The notes beneath the pieces were generated by a model. That model ran no database searches and was not told the DNA's origin. It saw nothing but the letters and a program-made list of their open reading frames with translations. Shown in pieces: positions 33,050 through 39,018 of a DNA stretch of 64,000 nucleotides. Each line of letters opens with the position of its first letter. The first letter of the stretch is position 1. The position numbers and the translations under genes are program-made. The DNA comes from a virus. The stretch is taken from IMG/VR virus record IMGVR_UViG_3300020179_002709, positions 1 through 64,000 of that record. One strand, 5' to 3'.

Positions 33050-33952
33050 ATGGACTTTAGTTCACTAAAAAAGAACCGTCAAACGGTTTTTGCAAGTCTC
33101 AGCAACGAGTTTAGTAAGCTCAATCAAACAACAAGTTCCCAAGACGACGATAGATTCTGGAAGCCCGAGGTAGATAAGGCAGGTAACGGATATGCTGTTA
33201 TTCGTTTTCTTCCGGCACCTACCGGGGAAGATGTTCCTTTTGTTAGAGTATGGGATCACGGGTTTCAAGGCCCGGGAGGCTGGTATATTGAAAAGTCTCT
33301 GACCACACTTGGACAAAAAGATCCTGTATCAGAGCACAACACCCAGCTTTGGAATTCAGGCATTGAAGCAAACAAGGAATTAGTTCGTAAACAGAAACGA
33401 AGACTTTCTTACTATAGTAACATTTATGTAGTAAAGGATACAGCACATCCTGAAAATGAAGGTAAAGTATTTTTATTTAAGTATGGTAAGAAGATTTTTG
33501 AAAAGCTTAAAGATGCAATGGAACCAAAGTACGAAGATGAAAAGCCAGTTAATCCTTTCGATCTTTGGGAAGGTGCAAACTTTAAGCTTAAAATTAGGAA
33601 CGTAGAAGGGTATCGTAACTACGATAAGTCAGAATTCGATAGTCCAAGCCCGCTCCTAGATAGTGATGAAGATTTAGAAAGAGTATGGAAGCAAGAACAC
33701 TCCTTAGTTGAGTTTACGGATCCTAAAAACTTTAAATCTTATGATGAGCTTAAGAGTAAATTAGATCGTGTCCTTGGTTTAATCAACGGGTCTCCTAAGC
33801 CACAGACTACAGCTGATAGTGAGCCATGGGATGTGGATGAACCTGTTAAAACAGCGGCTCCAATGAAAACCGCTAAAGCAAAAGCACCAGTCTCCACAGC
33901 AGACGATGATGATGAGGATATGGACTTCTTTAAAAAGTTAGCGGAAGATTAA
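33050..33952 (+). CDS. gp32: single-stranded DNA binding protein gp32
   Basis: This gene encodes 300 residues. The basic N-terminus (SSLKKNRQTVFASLSNEF) mediates cooperativity. The OB-fold core has GYAVIRFLPAPTGED and PFVRVWDHGFQGPGGWYIE. The acidic C-terminal tail (DDDDEDMDFFKKLAED) recruits replication partners. Unlike T4 gp32 it has no cysteine at all, so the T4 zinc site is absent. It binds ssDNA at forks and in recombination. The gene converges on the minus block, sharing a TTAA with the opposing stop. Confidence 0.92.
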   Translation: MDFSSLKKNRQTVFASLSNEFSKLNQTTSSQDDDRFWKPEVDKAGNGYAVIRFLPAPTGEDVPFVRVWDHGFQGPGGWYIEKSLTTLGQKDPVSEHNTQLWNSGIEANKELVRKQKRRLSYYSNIYVVKDTAHPENEGKVFLFKYGKKIFEKLKDAMEPKYEDEKPVNPFDLWEGANFKLKIRNVEGYRNYDKSEFDSPSPLLDSDEDLERVWKQEHSLVEFTDPKNFKSYDELKSKLDRVLGLINGSPKPQTTADSEPWDVDEPVKTAAPMKTAKAKAPVSTADDDDEDMDFFKKLAED

Positions 33953-35844
33953 GTATAAGATGTTGAATGCCGGGTACCAATACCTAGCGTTCCTCTAACT
34001 GCAATCGGTGAAGGGATCGGAAGCGGAGCATCCGGTCCCTTTTTACTTGATAGTTGCTTGTTGTTGCTTATTGCATTATTAATAACACTGCCTTGACCAC
34101 TTGCCATCTGAGAATCATTTCTTTCTGTGGCTGCAGCTACTTTCATTCCACTTGACGCTTGCGGTGACTCCAGTGAGGCAGCCTGAGGTGCGGCCATTAC
34201 TGGTGAAGCTGCTGGTCCTTGACTAGACGTTCCGTTACCACCATCTCCCCCACCACCTTGTCTAATTAAAGATACAATAGTAGGAGCTCTTCTTCCTACT
34301 TGAGTGTACCACTTACTATCTTCTAAACTTTTTGCAGCACCTTCCGTATCACCTTCCTTTAAATTACGAGTAAAGTTAGGCCACTTTTTAAACCAGGTCG
34401 GTCCCATATTAAAAGTAAGGTCTACTAAAGCTGCTTGCCCCTTATCGTTTAAGTTATCATAGCCAGGAATCTTTTCAGCTGCTTGTTTATGATGAACAAA
34501 GTCCTTCTCAAACATCTCCATAACTTCTTCATTACTAAACTCTCTATTATACTCTGGGGGTAGAGACTTACCATCCCCAATTAAATGTCCTACACCAACT
34601 GTCCATAACCCTAAAGAATCTTTATATGGCTTGTGCCTGATACCTTCATGATGTATAATCATTTTTTTAGTATCAGCATCACTACCGGAAGGTAATTGAA
34701 GCCCCATCTTTGATTTTGGTTTAAGCCCGGTACCTAAAGCACCGCTTGATTCTTTAAGCCCGGGGTCCTTACCTCCAGGACTAGATTTAGGCAGTTCAGA
34801 GCTTTTCTTTTCTACTTTTTGTGCAGGAGCACTTCCTGCTGGTCCAGGTTTTTCAGCAGCTGCTGCTTCCGGAGCTCCTTCTGGTTTACCTTCTTGTTTT
34901 TTAGCTTGCGCTTCCTCTTCTTCTTTAGTTCTTGCTAACGCTACTCCAGCAGCTACCGTTCCACCAGCAATTGCAATACCAGCGGCAATTTTACCAGCTT
35001 TACCCATCTTACCAAACGCAGTTTTTGCTTTTGTAATTAAAGATATAGTTGTAGTAATTCCTTCAGCTACAGATTTTAGTACTCCAGCACCAAGGTAAGT
35101 TGCCAGTCCAGCCGCTGCCGCAAGCAACGCAGTTTTAAAAGTATCCAACTCACCACTCGCTTCTCCTAAACCTTTTGAGAACCCAGTGAAAAAACCTGAA
35201 ATTTTTTCTTTAATATCTTTTGGTAAGAAAAGGTAAACAAGACCAGAAAATGCCGCAATGATAGCTGGATTTTTAAAAAAGTCACCCAATAAATCTCCAA
35301 ATGATTTTTCACTACCTGTAGCACCCGTCTGAGTTGGTCTTTCTTTTTTTACAGGTACGGCTTCAGCCTGCTGCTCTTCTAACTTATATTCTTCAACGCT
35401 CTTCTTATCAATAGCCTCTTGTAAGGCAGCAGTTACTCTTTCAAAGGACTTCACCACATCTTTAAGATTGAGAGCAATAGCACTTAAACTTTCTTTAACG
35501 TTCTTACCTTCATCTTTCTTACTATCAACAGCATTGCTAGTTGCTTTATTTTTAGCTTCTTTAACAGGTCTATCAAAAAGCATTTTAGCAACAGTACCGC
35601 TGCTAACCAAAGCTTCTAAAGCATCGTACTTTGCTTTTTCAACCTCGTCAGTACCAAGAATTTTATTAGTAGAAGCTACGGACATTGCTCGAGCATCTCT
35701 TTCAGACACAGCAGGCCCAATTATAGCTTCCTTTTCCTTACGAATCGCTGCTTCTTCTCTTGCAAGCTTGGCTTTTAATTCCTCCGGAGACATTATAAAA
35801 TCAGGTTCAGGCTTGCTTACTGATGGTTTATTTTTTCTTGCCAT
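33949..35844 (-). CDS. tail-associated protein with GH24 lysozyme domain
   Basis: This gene encodes 631 residues. The N-terminus is a charged coiled coil. Residues about 190-310 hold hydrophobic helices (IAAFSGLVYLFLP, LLAAAAGLATYLGAG, IAAGIAIAGGTVAAGVAL) like tape-measure proteins. A Pro/Ala/Glu linker follows, then a T4-lysozyme-like domain at about 395-535 with the catalytic triad in HHEGIR (Glu), YKDSLG (Asp) and WTVGVGH (Thr). It probably digests peptidoglycan during tail penetration, replacing the lysozyme missing from gp5 here. Coupled to its upstream neighbour by TAATG. Confidence 0.72.
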   Translation of the reverse strand: MARKNKPSVSKPEPDFIMSPEELKAKLAREEAAIRKEKEAIIGPAVSERDARAMSVASTNKILGTDEVEKAKYDALEALVSSGTVAKMLFDRPVKEAKNKATSNAVDSKKDEGKNVKESLSAIALNLKDVVKSFERVTAALQEAIDKKSVEEYKLEEQQAEAVPVKKERPTQTGATGSEKSFGDLLGDFFKNPAIIAAFSGLVYLFLPKDIKEKISGFFTGFSKGLGEASGELDTFKTALLAAAAGLATYLGAGVLKSVAEGITTTISLITKAKTAFGKMGKAGKIAAGIAIAGGTVAAGVALARTKEEEEAQAKKQEGKPEGAPEAAAAEKPGPAGSAPAQKVEKKSSELPKSSPGGKDPGLKESSGALGTGLKPKSKMGLQLPSGSDADTKKMIIHHEGIRHKPYKDSLGLWTVGVGHLIGDGKSLPPEYNREFSNEEVMEMFEKDFVHHKQAAEKIPGYDNLNDKGQAALVDLTFNMGPTWFKKWPNFTRNLKEGDTEGAAKSLEDSKWYTQVGRRAPTIVSLIRQGGGGDGGNGTSSQGPAASPVMAAPQAASLESPQASSGMKVAAATERNDSQMASGQGSVINNAISNNKQLSSKKGPDAPLPIPSPIAVRGTLGIGTRHSTSYT

Positions 35845-37199
35845 TATACGCCTACTGTTGTGGAATATGAGTAACTACTATCACTACGGGCTGAAGCATG
35901 CTCAGTTTTTGTTATAGTAGTACTATTATCTATATTATTAACTATAATTGGAGCTACCGCATCTTTCTTTTCTATAATAATTTCTTCTGATGATTCTGCA
36001 ATGTTTAAAGTTTTAGGCATAGTAAAGACTGGCAACTCCAGCGTCCCATCAGCCGTTTCAGTTATCTCACTTTCTCCATCCGAAGTAGCATCTTCTGATA
36101 ATATTTCCATTGCTGGAGCCGGGACTGCTGTGGATTGGGGAGCAGAAGAAGTAGATGCTGTTTGAGTTTCTTGCTGAGGCGTTACTGCTTGATTAACAGC
36201 CGACTTATTTGATTCTTTAACTAAAGGAGGAACAGCCGACGCAATAGGAGCTTTCTCTATCGACTGGGCCTGCACCCCTTCTGTAACTGATTCTTTTTCA
36301 TCATCATCCTCTTCTTTAACTGCATCTATCTTAGGGGAAGCTCGTTCCTCTTCATCAAAAAAGCTCACTGCTTCATCATATATTTCATATAGTAAAAGCC
36401 CTATTGCTGCAAAAGTTCCTACAAATGGAATAGCAGTGAGTAGTTTTTTTCCAACGTTAGGAGCAATACGAGACGCAAATGCAAAAAGTTTTGATAGCTT
36501 ACCTTTACCTTTTAATGCTTGCTTTTCTTTTTTAAGATCATCACGCGCGCTTTTAGCATTGCGCTTTTTCTCATCTATTACCTTTTCTTCTTTAGCTTTC
36601 TTTTTCTTTTCTTTCTCTACTTCTTTTTTATCTTTATCTAACTTTCCTTTTTCATCAACTAAATCATCATTAGCAGCATCAGTTATACCAAATAAAATAG
36701 AAGTAACTCTAGAAAGCTCTTTCACTGCTTCAAGAGTTGTTCCAATTTGCTTAAAGAGTTTGTAAGCAAATACTCCAGTAAGCACAGCAGTAATACCTAT
36801 TAGGGTATTTTTAATTACACCGAGAGTTTCTTGTCCTATAAGCCCGGAAATAAAACTTGCAAGATATTCTCTTGATTCTTTATTAATAAGAAAAGGAAGT
36901 ATTAAGCCTAATTTTGCTAAATCAAAAGCTTGTTTCTTAGCTTTCGCAGCAATTTCTGGCATACGACTTTCTGGAATAGCATCAGGGGGAGGAGGAGGCT
37001 CCTCTTCACTTAAGTAATTAAGAAGAAGATCACTTAGCTCACTAGCTGATTGTTTAAGCTCAAGAGATCCTTCTTCTATATTATTTACTTCTGATTTAAT
37101 ATTAAGGAAAAAACCAACGCTTCCAAACATAGCAGATGATGCTTCATTTATAGCATCCTGCTTTTGTTTATCTCTTGCTTTTTTTCTTACTGATACCAT
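35844..37199 (-). CDS. putative tape-measure/hub protein
   Basis: This gene encodes 451 residues. Features in order: a basic N-terminus, a predicted helical region with a proline run (EEEPPPPPDA), hydrophobic helices (LILPFLIN, IGITAVLTGVFAYKLF, LTAIPFVGTFAAIGLLLYEIY), a long Lys/Glu-rich coiled coil near 180-235, and a Ser/Thr/Gln-rich C-terminal half. This plan and the position after gp26-gp51 fit a tail tape-measure or hub protein analogous to T4 gp29 or gp28. It starts at the last A of the gp51 stop. Function inferred. Confidence 0.55.
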   Translation of the reverse strand: MVSVRKKARDKQKQDAINEASSAMFGSVGFFLNIKSEVNNIEEGSLELKQSASELSDLLLNYLSEEEPPPPPDAIPESRMPEIAAKAKKQAFDLAKLGLILPFLINKESREYLASFISGLIGQETLGVIKNTLIGITAVLTGVFAYKLFKQIGTTLEAVKELSRVTSILFGITDAANDDLVDEKGKLDKDKKEVEKEKKKKAKEEKVIDEKKRNAKSARDDLKKEKQALKGKGKLSKLFAFASRIAPNVGKKLLTAIPFVGTFAAIGLLLYEIYDEAVSFFDEEERASPKIDAVKEEDDDEKESVTEGVQAQSIEKAPIASAVPPLVKESNKSAVNQAVTPQQETQTASTSSAPQSTAVPAPAMEILSEDATSDGESEITETADGTLELPVFTMPKTLNIAESSEEIIIEKKDAVAPIIVNNIDNSTTITKTEHASARSDSSYSYSTTVGV

Positions 37200-37378
37200 T
37201 ATCGTTGTTTTCTTGCCTTAATGCGTTCTTGTTCTCTTTCCAAGTAATCACGAAGAAGTTCAACGTAGAGATCTCTCTCAAAGGGTATCATGTTTTCAAT
37301 TTCTGTAACTGACCATTTATGGTGCTGAGCCAAACTAAAAATTAAAGTATAATAATTGCTTAGGTTATTATGACTCAG
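37199..37378 (-). CDS. gp51: gp51-like baseplate hub assembly protein, no canonical start
   Basis: The frame encodes 59 residues from a CTG that overlaps the gp26 stop. The sequence NYYTLIFSLAQHHKW followed by IENMIPFERDLYVELLRDY and a basic Arg/Lys-rich end matches the short gp51-type hub assembly catalyst or tail chaperone of T4-like marine phages. There is no ATG, GTG or TTG before the conserved core. The frame opens at the seven-T run at 37393-37387 inside gp26, in the -1 frame, so it is probably made as a gp26-gp51 fusion of about 295 residues. Its stop overlaps the next start (TAATG). Confidence 0.75.
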   Translation of the reverse strand: MSHNNLSNYYTLIFSLAQHHKWSVTEIENMIPFERDLYVELLRDYLEREQERIKARKQR

Positions 37379-37393
37379 CCCAACATAAAAAAA
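37324..37393 (-). promoter_or_regulatory. putative -1 programmed frameshift site (slippery run + stem)
   Basis: On the minus strand, T TTT TTT (37393-37387) lies in the gp26 frame as an X-XXY-YYZ heptamer. A TGA in the -1 frame ends just before it, so that frame opens exactly here. Seven bases later a 9-bp stem starts: GCTGAGTCA (37379-37371) pairs with TGGCTCAGC (37332-37324), with one G-U pair and a 38-base loop. The gp26 stop lies inside the stem. Confidence 0.65.
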
Positions 37394-38085
37394 TCATTTA
37401 ACGAGGAAAGCTTAATTGTTCTTTCATTACCAAGACTGTTTGTATATTTAATTTCGTGATATAATCTAGGCATTGTCTGAAAGAAATCTTGAATCTTTTT
37501 AAAAGATTTAACATCTAAATTTTGTAGAAAATCTTCTAGCTCTTCGCTAGAAGAATCACTTGCCATATAAACATTATCTCCATCATAAATTTTATCAATA
37601 CAATTTTTAAGAATATCAAAAAATAAATCTGCTTCACTGTCTGTATTACTAATTTTTTCTGACATCCCGGCATGCGGGTAAGCAAGATAAAAGCCAAGCT
37701 TATCTGTTACTTCTATTTTGTTAGTATGTGCAGGATCAAATCTTACTTCCACATCATCTAAATTTACTTCTACGTCATACTTTAATTCATCTTCTAAATC
37801 TTTATAAGTCAACTTAATAACATTGTTAACCGATCTAGCTCTTATTTTTAAAAACAAATACTCTAAGTCAAAAGTAGCAAGCTTATCAATATCTACATTA
37901 TTAGTAATAATACAATTATTAATTACTTGCTTAATAGAATTAATAATCTCATCTGAATCATTACCCTGCATTGCCATTAATAATATTTTTTCTTCTTTTA
38001 CTAAAAACGGTCTTACTACTAATTTTTCTTTGCTTGATGGTAATGTCACTTCAAAAGTCGGATGACTAATTTTAGGTAAAGCCAT
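37375..38085 (-). CDS. gp26: baseplate hub subunit gp26-like (T4 baseplate family)
   Basis: This gene encodes 236 residues. The sequence pattern ISHPTFEVTLPSSKEKLVVRP-type start, LVKEEKILLMAMQG and the middle NCIDKIYDG match the T4 baseplate hub gp26 family. A strong AAGGAGA site is seven bases before the ATG. The last codons (DFFMLG) contain a slippery seven-T run leading to the gp51 frame. In T4, gp26 and gp51 are needed for hub assembly without remaining as major virion parts, which suits a chaperone role. Confidence 0.8.
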   Translation of the reverse strand: MALPKISHPTFEVTLPSSKEKLVVRPFLVKEEKILLMAMQGNDSDEIINSIKQVINNCIITNNVDIDKLATFDLEYLFLKIRARSVNNVIKLTYKDLEDELKYDVEVNLDDVEVRFDPAHTNKIEVTDKLGFYLAYPHAGMSEKISNTDSEADLFFDILKNCIDKIYDGDNVYMASDSSSEELEDFLQNLDVKSFKKIQDFFQTMPRLYHEIKYTNSLGNERTIKLSSLNDFFMLG

Positions 38086-38100
38086 TTTATATCTCCTTAA

Positions 38101-39018
38101 TTAAATAAGTCCTCCAAGAGCAATCTTAGAGTTATTTACAACGTTAATAATATCAGCAACGTTGTTTGGTTTTCTAAGTGTAGCTAACGTTTGAATAGCT
38201 GTGCCAACTTTAATTAAACTTTGAATTGCGCTCGGTGATCTTTTTTCAAGTACTTGATTAATGTTAATTCGTTCTATTTTCCAATTAAAAAATGTAAATG
38301 TGATTGGTAGTCTACTTACAGAGTCAGTATCGCCCCACCCAAGATTAACGTCACCCATAAAGACGGGATATGCCTCTCTAAATCTAACATTAAGTATATC
38401 GTTATTAGATTCGTCTACTGTGGTTACTAATATATCAGTAGAATATTGATCCTTAAAGTTAACTTCAAAAGGAGCTATAGAATAATCATGAGCATCTCCA
38501 ACCGGACCGTAAACAACCTCATCAAATTTAATAATACTATTCATCCATTCGTAGAAAAATTTCTGCACCATACCTGAAGCATCAGTTAAGAATGTCATTG
38601 TTGTATCTATAAAAATAGGAGCATATGGTTTATTTTCTACTGGACCATAACCGTATCTTCTTATGGGCGAGGTTGCAAAAGATACACCTGGAAGATTAGC
38701 TGACTCACAAAGAAATGCTAATGATCTAGCATTATCACTTTGATGTCTCATTGTGTGCGGAGGTCTTATCTCAATATAAAAATGAGCAGGTCTTGCAAAA
38801 CCTTTTAACTTAGAAGCAGTGCCAAGAAAATTATTTAAATCTCTTCTATTTTGACCCGGGGGCAACCCTCTACCTGTACCAAATAAAGAGCCTATTGCAT
38901 TTCTAAGCCCTTCAGGAACCCCAGGCAAATTGCTCACAGCATCTCCAATAGCTGCTGCCGACCCTACAGCGTCTCGAGATTTTGATATTGCGCTATTAAT
39001 CGCATTAATGGCTGTCAT
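38101..39018 (-). CDS. gp54: tail tube initiator (gp54-like)
   Basis: This gene encodes 305 residues. The N-terminal 75 residues are helical and Gly/Ala-rich. The rest has the tail-tube fold pattern shared by gp19, gp48 and gp54: FARPAHFYIEIRPP, then LAFLCESANLPGVSFATSP, FIDTTMTFLTDASGMVQ and EAYPVFMGDVNLGWGD. By length and position near gp4 and gp48 it fits gp54, which caps the hub and starts tube polymerisation. It overlaps the upstream gene by ATGA. Confidence 0.68.
   Translation of the reverse strand: MTAINAINSAISKSRDAVGSAAAIGDAVSNLPGVPEGLRNAIGSLFGTGRGLPPGQNRRDLNNFLGTASKLKGFARPAHFYIEIRPPHTMRHQSDNARSLAFLCESANLPGVSFATSPIRRYGYGPVENKPYAPIFIDTTMTFLTDASGMVQKFFYEWMNSIIKFDEVVYGPVGDAHDYSIAPFEVNFKDQYSTDILVTTVDESNNDILNVRFREAYPVFMGDVNLGWGDTDSVSRLPITFTFFNWKIERININQVLEKRSPSAIQSLIKVGTAIQTLATLRKPNNVADIINVVNNSKIALGGLI

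Follow-up and report, generated by a model that had tools for sequence, protein, structure and literature searches.

A −1 frameshift is reportedly used by tail assembly chaperones (TACs) such as lambda gpG/gpGT, as set out by Xu, Hendrix and Duda in 2004. The lambda pair consists of a short and a long isoform with a common N-terminus, and its −1 slippery run comes shortly before the short form ends. The slippery site of lambda G/GT differs from a poly-U heptamer.

For T4-like phages, the TAC genes were identified in 2022 (Vladimirov, Gautam and Davidson 2022, Virology 566:9-15). The PRFect paper cites that study for T4-like phages in which a short gene plus a fusion gene take the place of a shift (PMC10274946), and the phage Adele paper credits it with poly-T shift signals in T4-like TAC-N genes (PMC12846349). 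The latter paper also gives a GTTTTT shift motif for the TAC locus of Vandenendeviridae/Andersonviridae. The annotation of phage Konradin calls both gp26 and gp51 a "tape measure protein assembly chaperone." Since T4-like TACs and poly-T sites are, by these citations, already in print, a TAC frameshift locus is in itself of a known kind, and the novelty implied by the original prediction for the locus described here is smaller than thought. The literature searched, which does not extend to the full text of Vladimirov 2022, describes no frameshift at cyanophage gp26/gp51. Stem conservation, spacing, family distribution and an account of short gp51 proteins were likewise not found in it.

The gp51 proteins of cyanophages have been puzzling. 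A 2010 comparison put cyanophage gp51 at only ∼20% of the normal length and reported that the first ∼200 residues are missing from the proteins of both cyanophages and marine vibriophages (PMC3037559). If gp51 in these phages is the C-terminal extension of a TAC pair, then its short length is explained, since the shift would supply the missing ∼200 residues.

The locus examined here lies on the minus strand of a 64,000-nucleotide stretch of viral DNA (positions 1-64,000 of IMG/VR record IMGVR_UViG_3300020179_002709), which we call the window. Gene 26 and the frame annotated in some relatives as gp51 very probably form one TAC locus, in which a −1 ribosomal shift would yield both TAC-N and TAC-NC. 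As in lambda, short and long isoforms with a common N-terminus are predicted, with a −1 slippery run located just before the stop of the short one. Unlike lambda, the run is a poly-U heptamer, and the protein belongs to the PF12322 family of contractile-tailed phages. The Adele-type locus likewise has a poly-T −1 site at the TAC-N end and an extension that is usually annotated as its own gene, but it occurs in other phage families, uses the GTTTTT motif and has no downstream stem in the description consulted. T4 carries two separate full-length genes, 26 and 51, on opposite strands, whereas here there is one locus with a shift site.

Layout of the gp26 junction

Table 1. Features at and around the gp26 junction of the window
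Feature	Position	Strand	Remarks
gp26 (putative TAC-N)	37375-38085	minus	236 aa, 0-frame product
Shine-Dalgarno-like site of gp26, AAGGAGAT	38091-38098	minus	read from sequence
Slippery heptamer T TTT TTT (U UUU UUU), gp26 phase	37387-37393	minus	
TGA closing the −1 frame	37394-37396	minus	directly upstream of heptamer
Spacer, heptamer to stem	37380-37386	minus	7 nt
Stem 5′ arm, GCTGAGTCA	37371-37379	minus	includes gp26 stop TGA, 37377-37375
Stem 3′ arm, TGGCTCAGC	37324-37332	minus	
−1-frame extension (putative TAC-C, gp51-like)	37202-37387	minus	62 residues after slip
Stop of extension, TAA	37199-37201	minus	
TTG, sole in-frame start-like codon before conserved core	37331-37333	minus	no SD-like site
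Next ORF	35844-37199	minus	451 aa
Tail-tube-family gene, directly upstream of gp26	38101-39018	minus	phrog_45, PF23849

The features of the junction are collected in Table 1. The gp26 protein belongs to PF12322 (E 1.3e-57) and phrog_150 (E 4.5e-64). The extension matches phrog_634, "baseplate hub assembly catalyst" (E 4.1e-25), and also weakly matches the end of phrog_150, at positions 231-277 of 282 (E 0.0025).

An earlier reading of this sequence had proposed a −1 shift fusing the two frames, and its coordinates hold. In gp26, a TGA of the −1 frame is directly followed by the in-phase T7 run. Seven nucleotides further on there is a stem of nine pairs, one of them G-U, with a 38-nt loop and with the gp26 stop inside it, and the −1 frame is open down to position 37199. 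The product had been given as 233 gp26 residues, three linker residues and then gp51. The first figure and the total stand, with a predicted fusion of 233 + 62 = 295 residues, but the three linker residues do not, since −1-frame similarity begins at the slip site. The statement that no ATG, GTG or TTG precedes the conserved core was incorrect: an in-frame TTG directly precedes AQHHKWS of the gp51-like core.

Runs of seven T are common in this DNA. Their count in the window (49) is not beyond chance (shuffled mean 62.6), and for that reason the window alone would not carry a claim of frameshifting. The claim rests on the phase and position of the run, on the stem and on conservation, not on the T7 run alone.

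Conservation of the heptamer and of the −1 frame

Related junctions were compared after 80 IMG/VR loci had been fetched with the window gp26, with 22 non-T4 isolate regions and further IMG/VR sets added. Scans with single gp26 proteins gave 4 loci for CC2, 11 for HTVC008M and 2 for phi-pp2. All loci were picked by gp26 similarity and not by the heptamer. Five loci were set aside (L010, L011, L046, L148 and the incomplete L198), and neither the window's own copy (L083) nor T4 was counted. Removal of junctions with at least 90% ungapped identity reduced 214 loci to 117 non-redundant junctions.

The conserved slippery run that the original prediction expected among relatives is present. A heptamer of the X XXY YYZ type in the phase of the upstream gene, TTTTTT[T/C/G], occurs in the window and in 112 of the 117 junctions, although the rows are related and the counts are therefore not independent events. 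By group, it is found in all window-like (59/59), cyanophage-type (36/36), pelagiphage-type (3/3) and other (10/10) junctions, in all four Straboviridae rows (CC2, Aeromonas 65, LPCS28 and phi-pp2) and in none of five Ackermannviridae-type or Vibrio K364 rows. The 112 heptamers comprise 59 TTTTTTT, 52 TTTTTTC and a single TTTTTTG, a poor site for A-site re-pairing. Codon choice at the terminal Phe-Phe site also departs from expectation: TTTTTT is used in 78 of 78 genes, compared with a mean of 35.8/78 under synonymous codon shuffling within each gp26 (78 of the 80 loci entered this comparison, the other 2 having no heptamer). Outside that site, the 78 genes contain 14 in-phase TTTTTT.

Five junctions (L094, L095, L205, L207 and L217) have no X XXY YYZ heptamer, yet their −1 frame is open for 149-182 nt. 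The gp26 ends of the four Ackermannviridae-type junctions among them read GARATTTTCAT.

Long runs of T or A can permit slippage by RNA polymerase, and the frame change could in principle arise from mRNAs with an altered number of T rather than from the ribosome. The T7 form present in 59 of the 112 heptamers would suit such a process. However, the other 53, including all 36 of the cyanophage type (every one TTTTTTC), have just six T followed by C or G, and the fixed gp26 codon phase and the close downstream stem fit tandem tRNA slippage. We therefore consider polymerase slippage highly improbable. Homopolymer runs are also prone to error, so that the frame break might be a sequencing or assembly artifact, or else the remains of a decayed in-frame fusion. 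This explanation is barely conceivable given that the same arrangement recurs in 112/117 junctions, including those of the isolates S-RSM4, HTVC008M, Cr30, phiM7 and phi-pp2, with both −1 coding and the stem conserved.

That the −1 frame is coding beyond gp26 is supported by its openness and its pattern of variation. Past the gp26 stop, every one of the 117 non-redundant junctions keeps 149-209 nt of this frame free of stops. Among 50 window-like sequences, it contains no stop after the gp26 stop, compared with 69 and 103 in the other two frames. In these sequences, variation is highest at the third −1 codon position (0.526 versus 0.276 and 0.234), and this holds for the linker alone (0.586 versus 0.310 and 0.277). 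Similarity in the −1 frame starts at the slip site, with query residue 1 included in all 60 matches listed (of 557). A short form and a C-terminally extended long form are thus predicted at the sequence level.

These results bear on a further possibility, namely that gp51 is a separate small protein started within the −1 frame, either at the TTG of the window or by re-initiation after the gp26 stop. The TTG is in frame directly ahead of the core and could in principle start a 44-aa gp51, and some relatives are annotated with their own gp51 gene from internal codons. On the other hand, the TTG has no SD-like site, and conserved −1 coding begins at the slip site. With L094 dropped, no ATG, GTG or TTG precedes the anchored core in 22 of 79 non-redundant loci, and 44 of 79 have no ATG; after removal of the mis-anchored L092, the counts are 21/78 and 43/78. 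An ATG together with an SD-like site is found in 1/79 loci, and any start with such a site in 3/79. If the core boundary is set slightly further upstream, 45/78 loci are without a start, and in one locus (L079) the whole −1 ORF has no start codon. Independent initiation of gp51 is therefore very unlikely, and a −1 shift on the heptamer is the reading that we adopt below.

RNA structure downstream of the heptamer

Folding of the 72 nt after the heptamer was compared with nulls in which the protein encoded in the −1 frame and its codon usage were preserved. The downstream structure that the original prediction sought in relatives is evident in window-like loci, where a putative stimulatory structure is found a few nucleotides downstream and folding exceeds the synonymous nulls (mean z −3.97 over 59 loci, 48 of them under −2). 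Control regions in this group give mean z values of −0.10 for the gp51 core and −0.34 to −0.47 for gp26. The 36 cyanophage-type loci have a mean z of −2.97 at the junction, with 29 under −2. Their gp26 controls range from −0.36 to −0.72, and their gp51 core is itself somewhat structured (−1.67, 12/36 under −2). Junction folding is weak in pelagiphage loci (mean z −1.52, n=3) and in Straboviridae (−0.57, n=4).

Taken by itself, the window stem is moderately unusual (z −2.95), and 2 of 200 shuffles fold as well. Over 50 sequences, 89.8% of the cells of the 9-bp stem are paired, compared with 19.6-36.0% when the arms are slid. The covariation score of the stem is 0.224 versus 0.154, a value reached by none of 500 shuffles, with changes on both sides in four pairs. 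RNAalifold predicted no consensus structure from the same 50-row alignment. The cyanophage-type stem differs in being compact, with 9 bp and an 8-nt loop. In its alignment, pairing is found in 85.8% of cells versus 37.7-61.1% for slid arms, but covariation is not above shuffles. The most common start of the first stem of at least 5 pairs is 7 nt after the heptamer in both groups (24/59 window-like, 24/36 cyanophage-type).

Nine window-like rows of the 50-row alignment end gp26 with TAA. In four of them (L003, L006, L009 and L065), the 5′ arm finds a shifted 3′ partner in the minimum-energy fold, as if the change of register retains the structure.

An upstream Shine-Dalgarno-like stimulator is an optional and not a defining element of bacterial −1 programmed frameshifts. 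No such element is evident in the window, where the duplex energy is +0.2. Group means are −1.5 to −7.2, lower outside the window-like group, and synonymous means are −0.9 to −5.2. Because synonymous shuffles explain most of the low energies, we do not claim a stimulator of this kind.

Homology, proposed mechanism and gene neighborhood

The relationship to T4 also supports the fusion. A profile of 78 modelled fusions, over positions 15-281, aligns with residues 6-244 of T4 gp51 straight through the junction (E 9.8e-11). The N-terminal part alone also matches T4 gp51 (E 9e-06), and there the alignment stops at the junction. Full-length homology to T4 gp51 is thus found for the fusion only, and the 64-aa frame by itself corresponds to a C-terminal piece. 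For T4 gp26, the alignment is confined to the N part (E 5e-17), and this protein shares the Phe-Phe close to its C-terminus. PF12322 matches both T4 proteins, covering gp26 and the first 201 residues of gp51. TAC-N matches T4 gp26, and the fusion matches T4 gp51 end to end. T4 gp51 itself matches 1,339 phage records, and in 1,334 the match covers 80% or more of the T4 protein. A T4 gp51 was also sought in the window's own record, without a match; this record is perhaps a fragment, and the search may not reach a frame this short.

Structure prediction points in the same direction for the N-terminal domain. The AlphaFold2 model of gp26 has a pLDDT of 88.2, and the best solved matches to its N-domain, over 85-86 residues, are 3fgx (Z 7.9), the HK97 TAC 2ob9 (7.8) and YqbN 3klu (7.2), values just under 8 being in a range about which the comparison tool warns. 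The next row after 3klu reaches only Z 3.0. We take 3fgx and YqbN to be TAC-like. With Foldseek alone, the HK97 TAC 2ob9 was not significant (E 0.94), and predicted viral proteins returned mainly the same baseplate-hub family. Searching solved structures by sequence brought up no TAC, the best match (E 0.023) being unrelated, and NCBIfam gave nothing near a cut-off. The modelled resemblance to the HK97 TAC is thus supportive of a TAC fold in the N-terminal domain of gp26, and is not proof of it. The parallel with lambda G/GT that had been drawn for this locus appears to apply to the mechanism and, judging by the fold, also to the N-domain.

The heptamer, the open frame, the selected stem and the alignment with T4 gp51 thus support the proposed fusion of gp26 with the gp51-like sequence. 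What the data show directly are the signals and how widely these are conserved, the selection acting on the reading frame and the RNA structure, and the match of the fusion to its homolog T4 gp51; from the sequence we infer the slippage itself, its efficiency, the isoform ratio, the products and their chaperone role. Most ribosomes would read gp26 to its stop and produce the short TAC-N of 236 aa. At U UUU UUU, with the stem 7 nt ahead, the two Phe-tRNAs of a minority would slip back by one base, and these ribosomes would continue in the −1 frame through the gp51-like sequence to give the 295-aa TAC-NC. The short form would coat the tape measure, like lambda gpG, and the long form would tether the chaperone to the tape measure and the tail tube, like gpGT. 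In T4, the long form would instead be made by a separate full-length gene, 51.

It is well supported that "gp51" here corresponds to the C-terminal extension of a probable TAC-N/TAC-NC pair. On this view, the puzzlingly short gp51 proteins known from cyanophages and marine vibriophages would be the C-terminal part of a frameshifted chaperone, and gp26 and gp51, the hub chaperones of T4, would be connected with the TACs that other long-tailed phages use. As for its history, we lean slightly toward a −1 shift that is ancestral in T4-like phages and maintained by a stem ∼7 nt downstream, which exists in two forms (both of 9 bp, with a loop of either 38 or 8 nt). T4 and its close relatives would have swapped to two genes, and the Ackermannviridae-type/K364 lineage would have lost the canonical heptamer and kept the −1 frame. 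A 29-row tree, aimed at dating the T4 duplication from gp26, the N-terminal part of gp51 and related proteins, gives no reliable order: the T4-type gp26 and gp51 branches are long and carry a warning of a false join. The same tree groups K364 with the three Ackermannviridae-type rows included in it (100/99), all of which are without a heptamer.

Existing annotation leaves a gap at this junction, and a joined gene is given in none of the 22 non-T4 isolate regions. The extension has no gene annotation at all in some isolates, for example S-WAM1, S-BM3, CC2 and ACP17. Isolate records without an annotated gp51-like extension are L001, L002, L091, L092, L096, L101 and L102.

The extension ends and the 451-aa ORF begins within a shared TAATG (37197-37201, minus strand), an overlap of stop and ATG which suggests that this ORF is coupled to the putative frameshifted product. 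A tail-tube-family gene lies upstream of gp26, and a tape-measure gene was not identified as such within the window. In HTVC008M and Cr30, the annotated tape measure lies two genes past the gp51-like gene. The corresponding position in the window is occupied by a 631-aa ORF (33949-35844, minus strand) with a phage lysozyme domain (PF00959) at residues 398-522, and its counterpart in DLP6 is annotated as "lysozyme." This ORF may encode a tape-measure protein that carries the lysozyme domain.
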